From positions 51,402,274 through 51,466,273 of the forward strand of contig OX328127.1 of the NCBI GenBank assembly GCA_946811695.1: DNA of 64,000 bases. Reading direction: 5' to 3'. The position numbers and the translations under genes were made by a program. The stretch is from Gonocerus acuteangulatus (taxonomy: Eukaryota; Arthropoda; Insecta; Hemiptera; Coreidae). Each line of letters begins with the position of its first letter. Positions within the stretch are counted from its first letter, which is position 1. The notes below the pieces were generated by a model, which saw only the letters and a program-made list of their open reading frames with translations, had not been told where the DNA came from and searched no databases. Of the stretch, positions 33,401 to 46,680 are shown one piece after another.

Positions 33401-36400
33401 AATTATTCAATTAAATACGTAATATATTAATCTTATCAATTGAATATTACATTTATTTTTAAATGGAGGAAACGCAATAAAAAAAACAAACGTTTTTTCT
33501 AAATTTAACAAAACTAAATATAAGATCTTAACACTTCAAGATGAAAAGTGAACTAATTTTGCAAAAACAAGTTGTTGGGAATGTACAGAGGTATAAAAAC
33601 AAACGATAATTTGAAGTAGGTTGACCGGGTAAATGGGTGAAGAAGGCAACGAGTTCTAATTCGACTGAAAACGACCAAAAACTTCATTCAAATGCCATCC
33701 AGTAATAGGCAGAAATACTGGAAGTACAATACGGTAACGCTAGATAGCTCTAAAGTCAAGAAATGAGAAGATAAAGAATGCGAGAGATACGCCAAGCTCT
33801 AGACTGCTGTACAAGTCTTGCTTCGACTTCTACACAAGTCCACGGTATGTGGGTCCCGACCGCTCTCGACTGCTGTACAAGTCCACGGTACGGAAAGGGT
33901 TAATGGCACTAGGGATATTAACGGAAACACGCTAACATGTCTCAGTTCCTGCGAGTTGAACTTTTTATCATCAATGGACTGTTTTATCAAGAACTTCTTC
34001 TCTAACAGCATTCGCAAAGGTTGGATTATTACTCCTTTTATTAATTTATATATTGTTAACGTGAAAATATTCCAGTAGGGACCCAGCCCTACTGTTGGTG
34101 TTACTACTGCCCTATTTGACTACGCCTCCCATTTGATGGAATTTAAGGTATTGCACCATGCTTTCGAATCCTGGGGTGACTGTTGGCTTTTCTCTTTGTT
34201 GATAAAAACACAGGATAATTCCCGTCCCGAGTGGTAGCATCACTGCTCGGAGCAGAGAGACGACAGAGTGACTAAAGGCTGAAAACCAGCTGCTTTAATC
34301 TCAGGAATCGGCTTTTTGTGTAGTTCTTCTCCCGAACAGACTCCTCTTCTGGATTTTCCCATTACAGTGGAGTCATTTATACGAATTTGAGGGGGAACAG
34401 AAAATGTTTCGTATAAGTGAATACTTTGTATGGCTGAATAGTACTAGGTTTATTGACTATTTTTAAATAAAATAAATTCTTCATAAAAGTGGATGTTGTA
34501 TATAATTGAATATCACAAAGTGAATAATTCAATACACAGTATTAAATGGAGTTTTGCCAGGGAACAAAAAATTCTTCGTATAACTGAATGTTTTGTATAA
34601 GTAAGTTCTTATAAGTGAGACTCTCCTGTATTACTAACTTAAAAGATGAAATCGTCAATCCCGTACTACCTGAGTGTATGTAATTTGACTGCCTATCCTT
34701 AAAGCTTGTACCACAAAATAATATGTATTATCATTTTTATTTATTTATTTTTTTAAGGAATATGACGAAGAAGAGGACGAAGAAGATGAAGGGCCAAAAA
34801 GCAAAAAGAAAAAGAAAAAAAATGATAGATTTGGTGGTTTCATTATTGATGAAGCTGAAGTAGATGATGAAGTTGAGGAAGATGATGAATGGGAAGATGG
34901 TGCCCAAGAAATAGGCATTGTGGGCAATGAGATGGAAGAACTTGGTCCTACTGCTCGTGAAATTGAAGGAAGGAGGAGGGGCACAACATTGTGGGAGTAA
35001 GTTATTTTGTTTATTTTTTGTCCAATAACATATTCCGATTGAAATATAAATACGAAACATCTTTTCATATAAATATAAATTTAAAACATAATATGAATGT
35101 GTTTTGTGAATTTTAGATATGTTTGGAGGAGACAACAAAATATTTTATTAACAGCCATGGGTAGTTTTGAACTTATTGTTTGTTCCTTAAATATCTCAAA
35201 CTGATTGAGACTTTGAGATAAGCGAGTGAACGGTGCTCATTCAAAACCCTAATAAATTTTGTACAGTTGATATAAAGGGTAAATTTTAATATGACCACCA
35301 TAGTTGGAGAAAACAATAATTGAAGATTAGGAAGTATTGGTTCCGTTTTATTAAAGGCCATGCTTTAAAGTTTCTCTTCTGAGCTTTCCAACTACACCAA
35401 CGATAAGCATTTTATGCTATTACACGCTAAGATGGTATAATTGTTAGTCTGAACTTCTGGTAAATACTAGAGGTACAGATGTTAACGAAATATGCCAATG
35501 AGATATTCTTTTTTTCCTCGTTTGTCCACAAGGCTTTGTTTTCACTTAATTTTTAAAAAGTAGAAACTGAAGTTTTCCTTTCAAGAGATATTTCCTTCAT
35601 TGATTGTTGTAGAGGTATTCATTTAAAGAGAATTTATAATTCACTTGTCATATTTACTTTTTCACTAGCCCAGAAGAAAAAAAAAAAAAAACACTTGTCA
35701 GAAATCTAATGTCACTATTTATTTTTTCTCTCTCAATATTTATGTTTTATTCAATAATATTACAATTTGTAATTTGCATTATTTGAAATATTTTTTAATT
35801 TATTTCCTTTTTAGTTCTCAAAAGGAAGATGAAATAGAAGAATATTTAAGAAAGAAATACGCAGATGAATCTATTGCTGCAAGGCATTTTGGAGATGGAG
35901 GTGAAGATATGTCTGATGAAATTACACAACATACATTGTTGCCTAGTGTAAAGTAGGTATTTTTCATGATTTTCATTTTAACAAATTTGAGGAATATTTT
36001 GGTTTACTTCAAAATAATATTAGTAAAGTATGACCAAATAATATTAGTAAAGTAATGCTCTAATAAATTGATTATATTTTATTCTGAGTAATAATGATTA
36101 TTTTTTTTCATTGGATTTGATGAACATTAAAACTTTGTTTTCTTATTTAAAAAAATCAATTTTAATATTTATTGATTTATGTAATAAGTTTTATTCAAAA
36201 ACAGGAAATGCGCTGTTTATTAAATGAAAATGTTGTTAAAATTATTAATTCCTTAAAAAAAACAATACTTATCAAATTTTCAGGAATCCAAGGTTTATTT
36301 TTTAACTAATGCAATAACCATTAATATTGTATTTATTACTTACTATCACAGAGACCCAAATTTATGGATGGTGAAATGTAGAATTGGTGAAGAAAAGAAT

Positions 36401-39400
36401 ACAGCTCTGCTTCTTATGAGAAAATTCATTGTATACCAAAGTACGGAGCCATTACAAATTAAATCAGTAGTTGCTCCTGAAGGTGTTAAAGGATATGTTT
36501 ACATTGAATCATTTAAACAGGCGCATGTGAAGCAAGCCATACAGAATGTGGGTAATCTGAGGATGGGGATTTGGAAGCAACAGGTAAACATTAAAATCTT
36601 TATAAGCCTTTGTTCATATATTTTTTTAAAATTTTGTTTATGAAAAACATGGGGAAAATATAAAAAATTAGGGTATGGTTAAGACAACACTTATAAAGGT
36701 TACTCAATGATTTTCATCATTCAAAAGAACTCCAGTTGTAAAAACATACTGTTTATAAGAACAAAATTTCTAGTTACTCATTTCAATTCAATTTAAGGGG
36801 TAGTACTACCTTGTGCGTTAAAATCAAAGTCATTTTCTTGAATTTATAAATAAAAAAATAAATCAATATTTCATAATTCTTTATATCAAACGTTTTATAT
36901 GGGATGTAAAAGCATCAAAAAAAAAAGTTTCAATTTTTCAAAAAAAAAAAAAAAAAAAAAAAAAATGGCTGCACTGTATTTGAGAAACGGAAACGCTCTT
37001 TTTTTTTCCACGGGCGATAATCTGCAGGCGGCAATTTTTAATCTAGAACGAAAAACTAAAATTATTTTGAAAGAAGAAGGTTAAATCTAGTACCTGAAGT
37101 ACATAGGATTTTTAAAAAATATTAATTTTTTTGTAAAGGGTGACTGATTATTCATTTTCTATTAAAAAAATCATCGAAAATCGGTGATAAAATTGTTATA
37201 ATTCAATGAATCAAAAAAAATCCTACATACTTTACTAGCAAATATCATTAGGAAGCTGCAGTGAAAATGTGAAGATGATTGAGTAAAAATTGAAGACACC
37301 AGAGTATTGTCCGATTTGAAAAACATAGTTTTGAGAAAAGGACTTTAAAGTTTAATGTTCTGAAACGTTCATATTTTTTCTGTTTAATTTTTTTCATACT
37401 TTCTTGTAGTAAAAATTAAAAAAAAAAAAAAGGTTTTAATTTTGAAATGTATTCAAGGAGGACCAAAAAAAAAAACTTAAAAATTAAAAAGGGACCAATC
37501 GAAACTCGCTCAAAAAATTATCTTCAAATCAGCATCGCGTTCACTTTTAGGTATAGGGACGTCATTCGAAAAATCAAATTTTTTACCCACTTAAAAAATT
37601 TTCTTCACATAAAGACTCTTGGATATCATTTTTGATTATTTAAGGAAACATTTTAGCCCATTAATAAAAAAAAAAAAAAAAAATTAAAAAAAAAAAAAAT
37701 GGTAAAAATAAAGTTACAAGTTGGTATTGCCCCTTAATGTATTAAATACCTGGTTATCAGAATATCGTTTGTAAGGATTTATTGTATATAATGACCAAAA
37801 GATATTCTATCTCTGAGAAAACAAATCCCCGATCACAACAGATGACTAATAATTAATGAGAAAATAAATCCTTTGAAAGAGGAGTTTGTTATAATATTGT
37901 AAACAAATATTTTTCTGTTTTCCGAGAATGTTTTCATTGGTTTCCAACAATATATTTAGGCACTCTTTTGATACCTTTCTCAGTTTCTACTTAAAATCTA
38001 GTTAACCCTTTAACAATGAGGCATTCTTCATGGATTGCAATGCAAATGGTATTAATAGGCTTGAGCCCACTAGGGGTGATGGCTTTTCTTCAGAAAAAAG
38101 AGAAGGCATCAGCCTTATCCTGGCTGGAAAAGGGTGGTGACCTATAGATAAACCATCCTAAAATTCATAGATTGATGAAATTTGGTGGGGAGGTAGCCTT
38201 TGTATAGACTAAGAAAGATACCAAATATTATTGAAAAATATCAACTGATTTGTAAATTACAGCTATGTAAAATTTCAAAAATTGTCAAAAAATGCCGGTA
38301 CCTGAAATGTTTGAATTGCTATTGTGGCTCTTATATTTAAGCTAGAGAGCTGGGAGGGGTGTTATTTTAAAGCTCTTTGTACAAACTTTCTTATGACATG
38401 CAACACCATATAGGTTAGGGGGAAAAAAAATTTCTCAAATTCAAAAACAAAATTTTATTTTTATATATCTCAAAATGCGTATTTTTTAAAATTTTCAAAA
38501 TTTTATATGTTTTTCTCAGTGTATTTGAGAACTTATTCCTAAAGTTTTATGATGGGATTCCAATGGGTTCACCATTTATTAATTTTTTTTTTTTTTTTAA
38601 GACGCTAATATTTTGGACGATATACAAAACAAAATCATATTTTTAAAAACAATGAAAATACGGTAGTTGGAAAGAAAACAGCATGTAGAACTTGTTAGTA
38701 AAAACAGTACAAAAAAAATTAAACAGTAAAAACAACGCACATTTTTTATGTAGTTTGTAAACGCCAAATCACAATTTCAAAAAAAACACTGTTTTTACTA
38801 ACAAGTTCTACATGCTGTTTTCTTTCCAACTACCGTATTTTCATTGTTTTTAAAAATAAGATTGGTTAAAATTTATTGTATTGATATATATACTCCGCTC
38901 ATTTCTGCCTGTCTTTTACTTACTACTTGTACATTTTCTTTACTTATAAGTTGTATATATTTTTTAGCTGAAGAAGGCTGCCATTGTTGCAGTCGAAACG
39001 TCCAAAATACAGATTTCTTTTTGAAAGTCAGACGTTTTTCTCCTAGCCGAATCCCAACTATACCTGTCTTCGTATCTCTACAGCGGCTAACTATCTCCAT
39101 CTACAAAATCATATATGTACCTATAAATGTCATATTGCAATACATCTTCAAATCTCTTTAAAATTTTTATAAATAATCTTTTTTTTTTAATAAAAATTGG
39201 TTGATTAATTAGAAATAATAATTATAATAGTGAAAGCATTTTTATTAAAAAATAAAATAAATCAGTATTAAATTAAACTTATATTATCATTAAATTTTCT
39301 AATAACAAACAAACAAAATTGTACTTGCCTTCATTAACAAAACTACTTTAAGAAGATGACAAGTAAAATTTAATTACCTATGTCACGCAAGAAAATTATG

Positions 39401-42400
39401 TAGAAACTGGAAATTTCTTAAGTGATAGTTTTGAAAAGGCATTAACAATGTCATGATTTTTTACCAGATGAAACCGTTTAAAAATCAAAGTAATGTATTT
39501 TTCTTTTGATTATAGCTTTGAAACTGTGTCTACTATAAGATAATTAGAAAAACTCTTAATAGAGGATGTAAGAGGTTACGTAAGTGCTTCATATGACACT
39601 AAATGGTGGTTGACATATGTTTTGTATAAAAATGAAGCTTGAGTTAAGGTCACCTTCTTGCACCCTGCTGGACCTCCTCTATATTTTTCATTTCCACGAA
39701 AACCTGATGTTTTTGGGATGCCAGTTAATTATAATGGGCGCTCAAAATTTAAATAAATAATGATATATTGTATAAATTTAATCCCGTTATACCAACTGGA
39801 AGAGTTTACACACAGAAAATGATACTCAAACATCAAATGAAGCTTTCCAGGATAAGACATAAGCTACTCAGCATTACTTTTCATCTCCTTAAAGTAGTTT
39901 TGTTGATGAAGGCAAGTAAAATTTTGTTTAAGGTTTGTTATTAGACAATGTTTATTTATTTACATTTTAATGTCCATTATTATTAACTGAGAATTTTCAG
40001 ATAGGTTATCAATAAGTTACCACCCTTTTCTAGCCAGAATAGGGCTGATGCCTTTTCTTTTTTCTAAAGAAAAGCCACCACCCCATAGTGGGTATCGATC
40101 CCACGACCCTTGGCTCTGAGTGTTAAGTGCTCACACCTTGACACTCATCGCCCCCGGGCCTTCCATTACATCATTAGAAAATGTAATGATAATATAAGTT
40201 TAATTTAGTACTGATTTATTCTATTTTTAAATAAAAGTGCTTTTACTAATATAATTCTGATTCTGATTTATCAATAAATTTTATTTAATAAAAAAAGATT
40301 ATGTGTAAACATTTTAAAGAGATTTAAGTTGTATTGCAATATGACTTGTGTAGGTACATATATGATTTTGTTTTGTATATCGTCCAAAATATTAGCGTCT
40401 TAAAAAAAACAAAAAACAATTAATAAATGGTGAACCTATTGGAATCCCATCATAAAACTTTAGGAATAAGTTCTCAAATACTCTGAGAAAAACATATAAC
40501 ATTTTGAAAATTTTAAAAAATACGCATTTTGAGATATATACAAATAAAATTTTGTTTTTGAATTTGAGAAATTTTTTTCCTCCTAACCTATATGGTGTTG
40601 CATGTCATAAGAAAGTTTGTACAAAGAGCTTTAAAATAACACCCCTCCCAGCTCTCTAGCTTAAATATAAGAGCCACAATAGCAATTCAAACATTTCAGG
40701 TACCGGCATTTTTTGACAATTTTTGAAATTTTACATAGCTGCAATTTCCAAATCAATTAATATTTTTCAATAATATTTGGTATTTTTCTTAGTCTATACA
40801 AAGGCTACCTCCTCATTAAATTTCATTTAAATCTGAGATGGTAAGAAAAAACACTGTGTTGATTTGACACGGAATGACCCCAATGCCCTAGTCGTTATTT
40901 CCCATTATTTAAAAGATTAAATTATTTTATTTTTTTATTGTGGTATTACTATTTGTTTTTCTCAAATACTATTTTTTTTAAAGCAATGTTTTATGTAATT
41001 CAAATGTAAAAATATTAAAAGAAAAATAAAAGTTATTGTGATTGTTATTAAAGGTTGTTGTGAATTTTGTTTTCATATTTTTATTTATTTATTTATTTAT
41101 TTTAACGGTTTTCATAAAATATGAAAAAATCAAAGTAATTTCCTGTCTCCAAAATCTCATAAAATTAAATTTCAAGGAGGGAAAAGGTGCTTTGAATCAA
41201 AAAGAAAAATAATTTATGTACGGTTACAATTTCCATGAGGTTAATGAACTTTTGAATAAATCAATGAATGTCCTGCGCCCGTGGTATAATCCCCCCCCCC
41301 TCTGTGGAAAACAAATGTTTTTGCCTAATATAATCAAATTTAGCTGGCTCAATACGTTCAAATTAAGGAAAGAACACGTGGTCGATTGCCCCCTGACACA
41401 CTTGTGGATTGATTAATTGACCCTATGTTGCACTTGTGGATAGTTACGAATTTTTCCATCCGCACTGAATGTGTTAATACATAAAAAAGTATTCAAACTA
41501 ACATTCCTGAATATTTTTCAATCAAAGAGCATGTAAAAGATTTTAATTGAAGAAAAAGTAAACTATAAATTGTAGCAAGAATCAGTTTTTGCTATTAAGC
41601 TCCGATGTTCCAGATGCTGATGTGCCTTAATACCTAAAAAAAACAAAAAACAAAGTCCGATGTTCGTGTGGATGTTGTTATAAATGAATTACTATTTCTG
41701 AATAATTTGAATTATTATTATTACGGAATCACAATAATAAATATTTGTTCAAGGTAGGGATTGTCGGGGTTCGGTCCCTGCTACTTAATAAAACTACATT
41801 TTATCATAAAAATGGTTTTATTGTGCCGACGTTTCGGCTTGAACTTCAAGCCTTCATCAGGGCTGTAAAAAACAAGTAGGACGGTTTTTTACAGCCCTGA
41901 TGAAGGCTTGAAGTTCAAGCCGAAACGTCGGCACAATAAAACCATTTTTATGATAAAATGTAGTTTTATTAAGTAGCAGTGACCGAACCCCGACAATCCC
42001 TACCTTGCATCATCTACGGTCAACGATCTCCTCTCAATAAATATTTGTTCTTTTGCCATTTTTATGAATAACTGCTTTCTTCTATGATGGGAAGTTGGCT
42101 AAGAGTAGAGAAATACGTGAGTCATATATAAGAACAGTTATTGGTTCTGTTAATAGTTCTTGCCTGAGTAATGCCTTTATCTTGCACTTACTGGTCTAGC
42201 AATGCACTGTTAACAGAATAGAAAGTTCATTTTGTCTTTCCTGTTCTAAACTTGTTGGGTCCCTGAACCTGAATGTTCAAGCAATTTTTTTGTCAACCAT
42301 GAATTATTCCTTCAACGTATCTCATGCAAATGGCTTATGGCCTAAAAGTACATCTTGGATTATGTTGCCATATACAATCAAATAAGGTGGTGAAATATAT

Positions 42401-45400
42401 CAGCCAGTAATTTTGATTATCATTGAGCTTTCCAGCATTGTATTTTTTCCTGCTTGGATTCTTTCAAACAATTGTATGTTGCAGTCATTCATTTATAGTT
42501 TTGTGTTATTCTTGAATTTCCTAAATAATTCCGGAATTTTTTTATGGGATTCTCTTATCTCCCTTACATTTGACAAGGAATTAATATTTTTGTTCAACTT
42601 ATCATCCAGACGCTCTTCCTCTGTCGGAATGCTTTTAGACAATGTTTGATTAAAGTCTTTCTCTCATGTGCAAACAAAATAATTCAGCTTCATTACACAT
42701 ACGTATTCTACTCCTAGAAGCAGCCAATTGCTCTTTTTGTTTGTCTAAATACGCTGTCCATTCTGTTTTTTTTCTTAACTGAACCAATATGATACACAAT
42801 TATTTAATAGATTTTACCCTTTAACTTGTTTCTTAGAAGGCACGATGGCAAGCCGTTGTTGTGGATTCCCCGGAGAGGTGGTAGGTTTCCTTTCGAAAAA
42901 AAGAAAAGGCATCAGCCTTTCCTGGCTAGAAAAGGATGATGACCTATAGATAACCCGTCCTAAATATCTGTATTAATTGTAAATGGACGTCAACAATTTA
43001 AATAAATAAATATCTTGTTACTTTCCAACATGGTAGTATGTTTTGAGTTATCTTGTTCTTGCTTCTTCATATCTGTTGCTCAAGTAGAAAGATTACTGAT
43101 TTTGAATAGATGAGATGATGAAATTAACAATTTGTAGGGAAAATGACCTTATTCATTATACATTGTCACAAATACACATCATATTCAAATTGTAAGTTTA
43201 ATGTAAAATGTGTGTTTTAGATGGTGCCAATCAAAGAAATGACAGATGTTTTGAGAGTTGTCAAAGTTCAAACAGGACTTCGGCCTAAGCAATGGGTTCG
43301 CCTTCGAAGAGGTAAAAAATAATAATTTCTTCCTATGAAATATATTGGATTACTTCACTTATTATTTTACTAATTTTAGGCCCTGTTACTGATCTAATCT
43401 TCTTTTCTTAAAACACTTAACAGAATGATCTTTTATTTCCTTTAGAGAAATATTTGATGCGCTTTACTCTAATTTCCATTTCTTTGATTCTTTCTTGCTC
43501 TTAACTTTTATTAAATATTTGTAGAATTATGTCTGAAGATATTTAATTTTAGTTCTTTGAAGAAATATACTAATTAAATTTTCATGATGATTAGATAGTT
43601 AGTTTTTTTTTTTTTTAGCGAGGTGATAAAAGCTTTTTATGAATAGGAAACCTCTAATTAAAAACAAACTCACATGTTCACTGATATCTTGTAACAAAAT
43701 TTAATTAAGTAAAGATGGAATGGTTGGGATTCGGCTAAAGAAACCTCAATATGATTTTTGGTAAAAAAAAATCTATATTTTGGACGTTTCGGCTACTTAT
43801 TGGTAGCCTTCGTCAGCTAAAATGACAAGAAAAACAGAAATTAATCCAAAAAAAAAAGTTTATAATTGAGATAAGTAACAGAACTATAAATACAATTAAT
43901 TAACTTATTATAAAAGAACAATTTGGTCTAAAATTCTTAGAATGAGTAGAATGAAAATCAGAAGAAACATAACAAAAAAAAAGAAGAAAAAAGGCTATTA
44001 TATTGAAGTTTATATAAGTATATAGGTATATAGGTGCTAATAGTAACAAACAGATAAGATACTACATACCAATGGAAATGCCTGGAGGCAGATTTTTTTA
44101 CCAAAAATCATATTGAGGTTTCTTTAGCCGAATCCCAACCATTCCATCTTTACTTAATTAAATTTTGTTACAAGATATCAGTGTACATGTGAGTTCGTTT
44201 TTAATTAGAGGTTTCCTATTCATAAAAATGAGTTAAAAAGCTTTTAGATAGTTATTCGCCCGTGGTCAAATTAAAAATTGTTAATAATGTTCCTTTGAAT
44301 GGATGAAAATAACAAAATAGTTTTTTTTTCTAATTTGTGTGCATCAACAGCTAATCTTATTAATGCAATGTCAAAATAGTAATTCTATCATTTTTGTTAT
44401 TATGAAATAATTATCTAAATTCATCTTGGAAACTTAAAATTAAAAATTATAGTTATTAATATTTTTTATTATGAAGTTTTATTTTTATTATTTCAGGTTT
44501 GTATAAAGATGACATTGCTCAAGTTGATTATGTGGACTTAGCTCAAAACCAAGTTCATTTAAAACTGCTACCTCGAATAGACTACACAAGGCCAAGAGGA
44601 GCTCTAAGAGCTAACCAGGTTTGTTTCTTGTCAAGCTATTCATGCTCTTTACTGGGGGAAGAAAAACAGTAATTATTTTAAACTGAATAAATTGTTTTCT
44701 TTTCTTGGCCAATAGAGCTAATTGGCTCTTTGAGAAGATACTATTATTTCTCCTTGGAGTCACTGTCACCAAATTCCAAAGATAAAAAAAAAAATATTCT
44801 ACCATTTTTGACTGATTAACAGACTGACAAACACAAAATTCAAAATCCATAAGGCTGCAATTATTATTTTGCACAAAATAACCAACTATTATAGAATTTT
44901 TCAAATAAAAAGTGAAGAATATCTCTCCATCTTTCAACAAGGACCACATCTTAACTCTCAGTTTTGACATGGCCTTTGTATCAGTAAGTTTGTCTATGTT
45001 CCATTGGGCTATAATTAATTTTTAGGCTCCAGAAGAGGTATCCGAGGACGCGAAACATGTAGAGCCATTTTTAATATAATTACGATTTTGTTAATTTGGA
45101 CTTTTATTGCCTAACAAAGAAAAATCATTATTTCATTGTTTAGTTTTATGATATGGGGTTATTAGGACGGGTTATCTAAAGGTTACCACCCTTTTCTTCT
45201 AGACAGATTAGGTGTGATACCTTCCTTTTAGTCAAAACAAAAGATACCACCCGCAGTGGAATTCGAACCAAATATCCCTGGTTCAGAGAGATCAAGTTTT
45301 AACATTCGGGCCTTCCCATTATTGTTTAAATTAAGTATTCTATTGCCGGTATTTATGGGACGAGGTTAGCTCAGTGGTAGATCACTGGACTAATATGCTG

Positions 45401-46680
45401 GAGGACCACAGTTCAAATCTTGAGAACCCACTTAAGATTTTTTTCTTCTAGTGTCTTCGTTTGTGGGTTGGATTCCACCTCGGTGACTGTCCCTAGGCCA
45501 GCCTGTAATTAATTTATAAATGGGTACCTGCAAAGGGGAAAATAAGGCGGCCGGAGCATAGTACCACACTATCCCTAGTGCACTGTATGGTCATGAATCA
45601 GATACCTCTTTAGTAAATGCCCCTCTGGGCCCTTGTAGCCTGTTACTGGACTTATATGTAATATGTATTTACTTCCCAAAACTTATTCACATGCCTAAAT
45701 ACAGAAGTTGCATGTCTCTCTGCTAGAATAAATTCAACCTTAGGTACATAAATGTGCTTCAAATTCATTGTTTCATCCATTAGATAATATTTGAAATATA
45801 TTTGATAGTTGAGGACAATCTTTTGATGTAACTGTAATTCTATTAGAGGCCTGGTGGCCGAGAGTGTTAAGGCGTGAGCACTTAACACTCCGTTCCTAGG
45901 TTGTGGGTTCCATTCCCACTAGGGGTGGTGGCTTTTCTTTGGAAAAAAGAAAAGGCATCAGCCCTATCCTGGCTAGAAAAGGGTAGTAACCTATAGATAA
46001 CCCGTCCTAAAATTCTGAGTTAATTCTAATGGATGTTAAAATTTAAATAAATAAATAATTCCGGGCCTCCCTGTGTTCTAGTGGCTAATGCCTTAGATTC
46101 TCATGTGGGAGATGGTGGGTTCGAGTCCCATTGGCGGCAGGAATTTTCTTATCTAACAGCTCGTTGAGAAAATTCCTCGCTGAACTAGCATATCGGCGCT
46201 AATGGCCGAGATGTTGATGTGCCACACAAACAAAAAAAATAAATAAATAAATAAAAAAAATTCTATTAATTGGGATTCTTTTTCATTGCCTTTTTCATAA
46301 ACAAATATTCTTCTCATATATTTATTTAAATTTTAACGTCCATTTGGGGGCGAGGTTAGCTCAGTGGTAGAGCACTGGACTAATAAGCTGGAGGCCTGAG
46401 TTCAAACCCCGAGCAAGCACTAAAGATTTTTTCTTCTAGTGTCTTTGTTCATGGGTTGAATTCGGCCTCCCCGACCGTCCCTAGGCCGACCCAGCCTTTG
46501 ATTAATTTAATAATGGGTACCTTGGGTGCTAATGACTCTTGCAGTCGAAGCGGCCAAGGGGAAAATCAGGCGGCTGGAGCATAGTACTGACCATACTATC
46601 TCCCTAGTGTGCCGTATGGTCATGAATCAGATACCTCTATAGTATCTGCCCCTCAGGGCCCTCTTGGCCTGTTACGGGAC

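Follow-up and report, generated by a model that had tools for sequence, protein, structure and literature searches.

The genome of the coreid bug Gonocerus acuteangulatus (assembly GCA_946811695.1) raises the question whether an intron of the Spt5 gene harbors a ribozyme that cuts its own pre-mRNA. The stretch of DNA analyzed, hereafter the window, comprises 64,000 nt of contig OX328127.1 (positions 51,402,274 to 51,466,273, forward strand; all coordinates below are those of the window). A preliminary description, made from the letters alone, had placed a canonical hammerhead ribozyme in this intron, in the transcribed sense, and proposed that the pre-mRNA would be cut after position 41929. 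The motif is indeed there, but it is part of a dispersed retroelement and not a feature of Spt5. Very probably, a Penelope-like element (PLE) was inserted into the intron as a truncated, head-to-head pair of terminal repeats, and the ribozyme of this particular copy is silent. As such, the insertion belongs to a known kind, and is of mild interest only for a near-constant insertion in the hammerhead core.

The motif and the insertion that carries it

The plus strand between 41897 and 41932 reads CTGATGA-A-GGCTTG-AAGTT-CAAGCC-GAA-ACGT-C-GGC. The hammerhead letters follow one another in the order that the preliminary description had listed: the core CTGATGA (41897–41903), GAA (41922–41924), and C17 at 41929, so that CUGANGA, GAAA, and C17 are all found. 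Stem II consists of six pairs (41905–41910 with 41916–41921), and stem I is split into GCC/GGC (41894–41896 and 41930–41932) and GGTTTT/AAAACC (41883–41888 and 41938–41943). When up to three mismatches were allowed, the 36-mer occurred twice within the window, compared with 0.00 occurrences expected; it is a genuine hammerhead motif, far above chance. Its core, however, is not that of a canonical hammerhead because an unpaired extra A (41904) separates A9 from stem II. In a canonical core, stem II follows A9 directly with the 10.1–11.1 pair; here, skipping 0, 1, or 2 nt after A9 resulted in 0, 7, and 1 consecutive pairs, respectively, which means that one nucleotide has to be passed over. In addition, the place where stem III is expected is taken by the self-complementary ACGT (41925–41928), which in the monomer amounts to two base pairs without a loop.

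The preliminary description had proposed covariance models as a check and had named the lack of a hit above threshold as a refutation. No Rfam hammerhead family matched the whole window at gathering score, and at E ≤ 10 none was found on 41000–43000 or on the 69 bases of 41880–41948; an Rfam scan of 12 of the 65 repeat loci, again at gathering score, did not return a match to any family. Canonical identity was rejected because stem III is missing and the core has one base too many, which leaves of the earlier designation the motif as such and its core letters. The silence of Rfam counts against "canonical" only. It is compatible with the minimal type I hammerheads published in PLEs (PMC7761336; PMC6155905) because these are described without helix III (PMC7761336). 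The earlier suggestion that, with stem III this short, two copies may be required fits the same literature (PMC7761336). The window motif appears to belong to this minimal type, its core being present, stem III almost absent, and its carrier by all appearances a PLE.

What had been overlooked is the inverted repeat around the motif and, with it, a copy of the motif on the minus strand. The motif is located in the right arm of a 285-bp block (41751–42035), which is an insertion because an exact 15-bp direct repeat, AATAAATATTTGTTC, borders it on both sides. Within it, two segments of 124 nt (41750–41873 and 41884–42007), separated by a spacer of 10 nt, are 99% complementary; aligned over 123 bases, the arms differ by 1 mismatch. 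The window copy itself is non-coding. Its parts are as follows:

41736..41750, no strand: target-site duplication, left copy, 15 bp; exact direct repeat of 42036–42050
41751..41873, minus strand: left arm, terminal-repeat copy of the probable PLE without the 3′ tail; differs from the right arm at 1 of 123 positions
41825..41860, minus strand: hammerhead-like motif, left-arm copy; exact match of the 36-mer
41874..41883, no strand: 10-nt spacer separating the arms, from the inverted-repeat analysis
41883..41943, plus strand: hammerhead-like motif with split stem I, stem II, ACGU replacing stem III, and the C17 cleavage position at 41929, from sequence and folds
41884..42006, plus strand: right arm, terminal-repeat copy of the probable PLE; inverted repeat, repeated in the genome
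41904, plus strand: extra unpaired nucleotide (A) between A9 (41903) and G10.1 (41905), from sequence and pairing test
42007..42035, plus strand: 3′ tail of 29 bases, right arm only; found at the end of other copies
42036..42050, no strand: target-site duplication, right copy, 15 bp; exact direct repeat of 41736–41750

An inverted pair with a tail at one end and a short target-site duplication is the arrangement of PLE pseudo-long-terminal repeats (pLTRs). The element would have integrated as a severely truncated head-to-head pLTR pair, leaving the tail on one arm and duplicating 15 bp of the target, and the hammerhead motif would be a minimal type I ribozyme that belongs to the element itself. 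Within the family, this ribozyme would act on the RNA of the element, probably as a dimer or together with the element's protein.

Copies in the genome and a coding relative

A search of the genome (1.106 Gb) with the insert yielded at least 88 matching pieces, which is a lower bound as it derives from 40 scored of 59 first-look candidates. Among 17 loci inspected, inverted arms are present in the window copy and in three others (L002, L003, and L007), and 13 (L008–L020) have a single arm within the stretch inspected, with the same tail at its end. A flanking repeat of 13–17 bp was found at 9 of the 24 distinct tail junctions, the window's own among them. A longer relative, L030, has the arm twice, in opposite orientation and ∼3 kb apart; the two copies enclose two overlapping open frames, which match RVT_1 (6.4e-9) and GIY-YIG (3e-5) in Pfam. 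Canonical PLEs combine these two domains, reverse transcriptase (RT) and GIY-YIG endonuclease (PMC11167929). For the RT frame of L030, 188 homologues were obtained at E ≤ 0.001; among the 120 of these that were listed, most of those with a name come from insects. In L030, L031, L033, L034, and L035, the insert's terminal repeat occurs in head-to-head arrangements that are longer or complex, and inverted pieces of the coding part are present in L030 and L031.

The motif was also counted irrespective of the insert. The core pattern CTGATGAN{8,38}GAAACGTC has 7,294 matches in the genome (3,671 + 3,623), compared with 17 for the control pattern read backwards. Considering the first 100 of these 7,294 places (on contig C1), 18 neighboring motif pairs are less than 5 kb apart, and 15 of them are head-to-head (2 same-strand, 1 tail-to-tail); not one of 10,000 strand shuffles reached 15 head-to-head pairs. 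These numbers bear on the notion that the resemblance to a hammerhead is fortuitous, or that the insertion is a miniature inverted-repeat transposable element (MITE) derived from a DNA transposon and only looking like a hammerhead. Long inverted repeats are typical of MITEs, which is a point for this notion. However, the excess of core matches over the control, a stem II pairing that persists among families despite letter changes on both sides (see below), a tail limited to one arm, duplications that vary between 13 and 17 bp, and the link to RT and GIY-YIG in L030 all argue against it, and it is given next to no probability.

Also very unlikely is a non-autonomous metazoan retrozyme, that is, a repeat a few hundred bp long that contains a type I hammerhead, spreads via circular RNA, and is not the terminal repeat of a PLE. 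Like the non-LTR retrozymes of metazoans, the insertion has a type I hammerhead within a short mobile repeat and a target-site duplication of more than 4 bp (PMC7229834). Those described are, in contrast, tandem, found as circular RNA, and equipped with canonical hammerheads (PMC7229834), whereas the hammerhead here is of the minimal type, near neighbors are mostly head-to-head (15 of 18), and the very same repeat brackets the RT and GIY-YIG frames in L030. Truncated terminal repeats of a PLE remain the preferred identity.

The Spt5 intron and the likelihood of cleavage

The preliminary description was right that the motif lies in sense in an intron of Spt5. The insertion sits in sense inside one Spt5 intron of ∼6.6 kb because the exon encoding the NGN domain ends before 36584 and the next exon begins at 43221, both on the plus strand. 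The frame 36257–36640 contains the Spt5 NGN domain (best phmmer E 5.3e-36, SPT5 chain 3h7h_B); exon borders were judged by eye. Besides the two arms, the pattern CTGANGAN{6,36}GAAACG, in which N7 is free, occurs at 38968 (+), in the same intron, and at 43785 (−), which makes four occurrences in the window compared with 0.08 expected. The features surrounding the insertion are the following:

36257..36583, plus strand: Spt5 NGN-domain exon, from phmmer matches to SPT5 chains; the frame opens upstream of the exon proper, and the donor GT is at 36584
38788..39105, plus strand: second repeat with a hammerhead motif of the type (motif at 38968–39002, N7 = A), in the same Spt5 intron and in sense
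43221..43319, plus strand: next Spt5 exon, which starts MVPIKEM; the order WNQQ-MVPIK continues the aligned SPT5 chain, and 43319 is a provisional exon end
43783..43816, minus strand: antisense hammerhead motif, the third of its type, located downstream of the 43221 exon, from the pattern match

The second repeat (∼318 bp) is high-copy: of 1,434 first-look candidates, 40 were scored, and 36 of these align from position 38788 onward at 96–100%; its motif has a CTGAAGA core and a G-U within stem II. The third motif has a CTGACGA core and the stem II GGCTAC/GTAGCC. Over the palindrome of the insertion, 18 Rfam matches to microRNAs and small RNAs (up to E 10) were each far below gathering score and were taken as reflecting the long hairpin. 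Elsewhere in the window, a tRNA match (46350–46419, +; 33 bits, gathering score 29) contains several mismatched pairs and possibly represents a tRNA-derived short interspersed nuclear element or a pseudogene.

When the 285-nt insert was folded in silico, it formed a hairpin with −223 kcal/mol, compared with −63.5 for shuffled sequences (z, −32), and the 61 nt of the motif paired with the left arm at a mean probability of 0.98 (lowest single position, 0.001). Forcing the right-arm hammerhead resulted in −139.8 kcal/mol, that is, at a cost of ∼83 kcal/mol; the motif stretch folded alone reached −22.3 kcal/mol. Even for the isolated 61-nt motif, a fold paired via GAUG/CGUC (−20.8) was favored over the hammerhead helices (−17.9), energies that ignore non-canonical core contacts. 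Likewise, the hammerhead dimer of two window motifs (−34.7 kcal/mol) compares with a best co-fold of −51.8. A second sense copy of the window motif sequence was not found in the Spt5 intron, and a mixed dimer between 38968 and 41897, the sense motifs that it does contain, was judged poor, by reading only, as their stem I letters differ.

The left arm, being transcribed first, should draw the right arm into an almost perfect hairpin and thereby silence the ribozyme. The hairpin should also win kinetically because, in addition to this order of transcription, its loop is short. With an inverted partner only 10 nt upstream that should sequester the motif, cutting of the Spt5 pre-mRNA after 41929, as the preliminary description had envisaged, has but a slim chance in this copy.

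Several points weigh against the interpretation as a silenced PLE copy. At 15 of the 24 distinct tail junctions, a flanking repeat of ≥9 bp was absent from the retrieved stretches, and one of the three proteins scanned (from L031) was without a Pfam match. Fold energies are thermodynamic, and proteins or cotranscriptional kinetics could lead to a different outcome. The core letters are all intact and a transient active fold is possible; moreover, PLE hammerheads were earlier seen by the authors of PMC11167929 to self-cleave at 3–25 mM Mg2+, and hammerheads of this type can therefore act without protein. The intact core and the reported self-cleavage would also speak for an active intronic ribozyme domesticated in Spt5, similar to those of RECK and C10orf118, as would the sense orientation of the motif and the presence in this intron, 2.9 kb upstream, of another such motif in sense. 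This is nevertheless considered highly improbable, and slightly more so than a retrozyme. A repeat insertion with target-site duplication and nearly identical arms, the predicted sequestration, the extra core nucleotide, the lack of an Rfam match, and a loopless ACGU as stem III all stand against domestication, as does the poor prospect of pairing with the second intron motif; furthermore, the hammerhead of the PLE PAc from Anolis was not cleaved without protein (PMC11167929). An intron read in isolation can thus make the ribozyme of a retroelement look like a regulator of the gene; what decided the case of the window motif was its copy number, its inverted partner, and the duplication of the target site.

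The extra core nucleotide and known systems

The unpaired nucleotide following A9 is not peculiar to the window copy. In 6,726 genome matches, A9 is followed by a non-G base and then by G, whereas G comes immediately after A9 in 21 (13 + 8), each with a control of 0; in several of these 21, stem II is the same and the extra A is replaced by G. These two patterns and the core pattern above differ slightly in the spacers allowed, so their counts are not exact subsets of each other, and base pairing is not part of any of them. Pairing was assessed on 33 distinct motif sequences (N7 free), derived from 88 sequences, in three registers and with a threshold of at least 4 consecutive pairs; the loci had been picked by pattern or similarity and are not an unbiased sample. 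Such a stem II was present in 21 of the 33, in every case (21/21) with exactly one base skipped. The 12 motifs without it in any of the three registers include decayed copies and motifs chosen for G after A9 (the exceptions L076–L087), and for two of the 12 (CTGATGACGC...), bulge-free pairing would be possible below a C-C mismatch, which speaks against a strictly universal extra base. Among the 21 paired motifs, pair 1 is always G-C; at pairs 2–6, the letters vary on both sides in some motifs (for example, T-A, A-T, G-C, and C-G at pair 5), and 2 motifs are unpaired at pair 5 and 6 at pair 6. Because these two-sided changes preserve pairing, stem II was maintained while the sequence diverged between families.

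Judged from these sequences, the extra base appears to be nearly constant, so that the hammerhead core of several families is longer by one almost invariably inserted base, which poses the direct question of how PLE hammerheads differ from textbook ones. At other places of the core, insertions after A6 or beside C3 are reported to be associated with low activity, and one in the GAAA stretch was considered to be tolerated with little change (PMC3088659). It is conceivable, though rather unlikely, that the PLE hammerheads of this genome constitute a distinct core variant, with a near-obligatory unpaired nucleotide between A9 and stem II that several stem II families have retained and a protein-assisted or dimeric architecture, in which A9, the inserted base, and G10.1 can double as the start codon of the element.

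The latter idea relates to PAc, a Poseidon element, whose open reading frame begins at the start of stem II, with C3 and G8 preceding the start codon (PMC11167929), and whose cleavage site is 26 bp downstream of that codon (PMC11167929). One G. acuteangulatus motif (C1:1742046) reads CTGATG ATG AAC ..., with 26 nt from the ATG to the cut position; taking A9, the extra base, and G10.1 as this ATG gives the spacing of PAc. As the two distances agree, PAc itself probably has the same inserted base, namely as the T of its ATG. The window family differs from PAc in that its frame at the corresponding place closes immediately (ATG AAG GCT TGA).

With the mammalian hammerheads in RECK and C10orf118, the window motif shares the location in an intron; those are conserved across species and active in vitro (PMC3088659), whereas the window motif is a copy of a repeat. 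The closest likeness is to Penelope/Poseidon PLEs. Rotifer Penelope elements have pLTRs with an adjacent inverted pLTR, and one member of the inverted pair may carry a tail (PMC3846280); head-to-head palindromes are the commonest of their inverted arrangements, and target-site duplications, where present, are 8–10 bp long (PMC3846280), compared with 15 bp in the window. The window copy further differs in having no coding part and in consisting only of the terminal repeat, arranged as a near-perfect palindrome. What it has in common with Penelope/Poseidon PLEs is the RT and GIY-YIG frames of its relative, the pLTR-like repeat, the head-to-head inversion, the tail on one arm, the short AT-rich target-site duplication, and a hammerhead without a real stem III.
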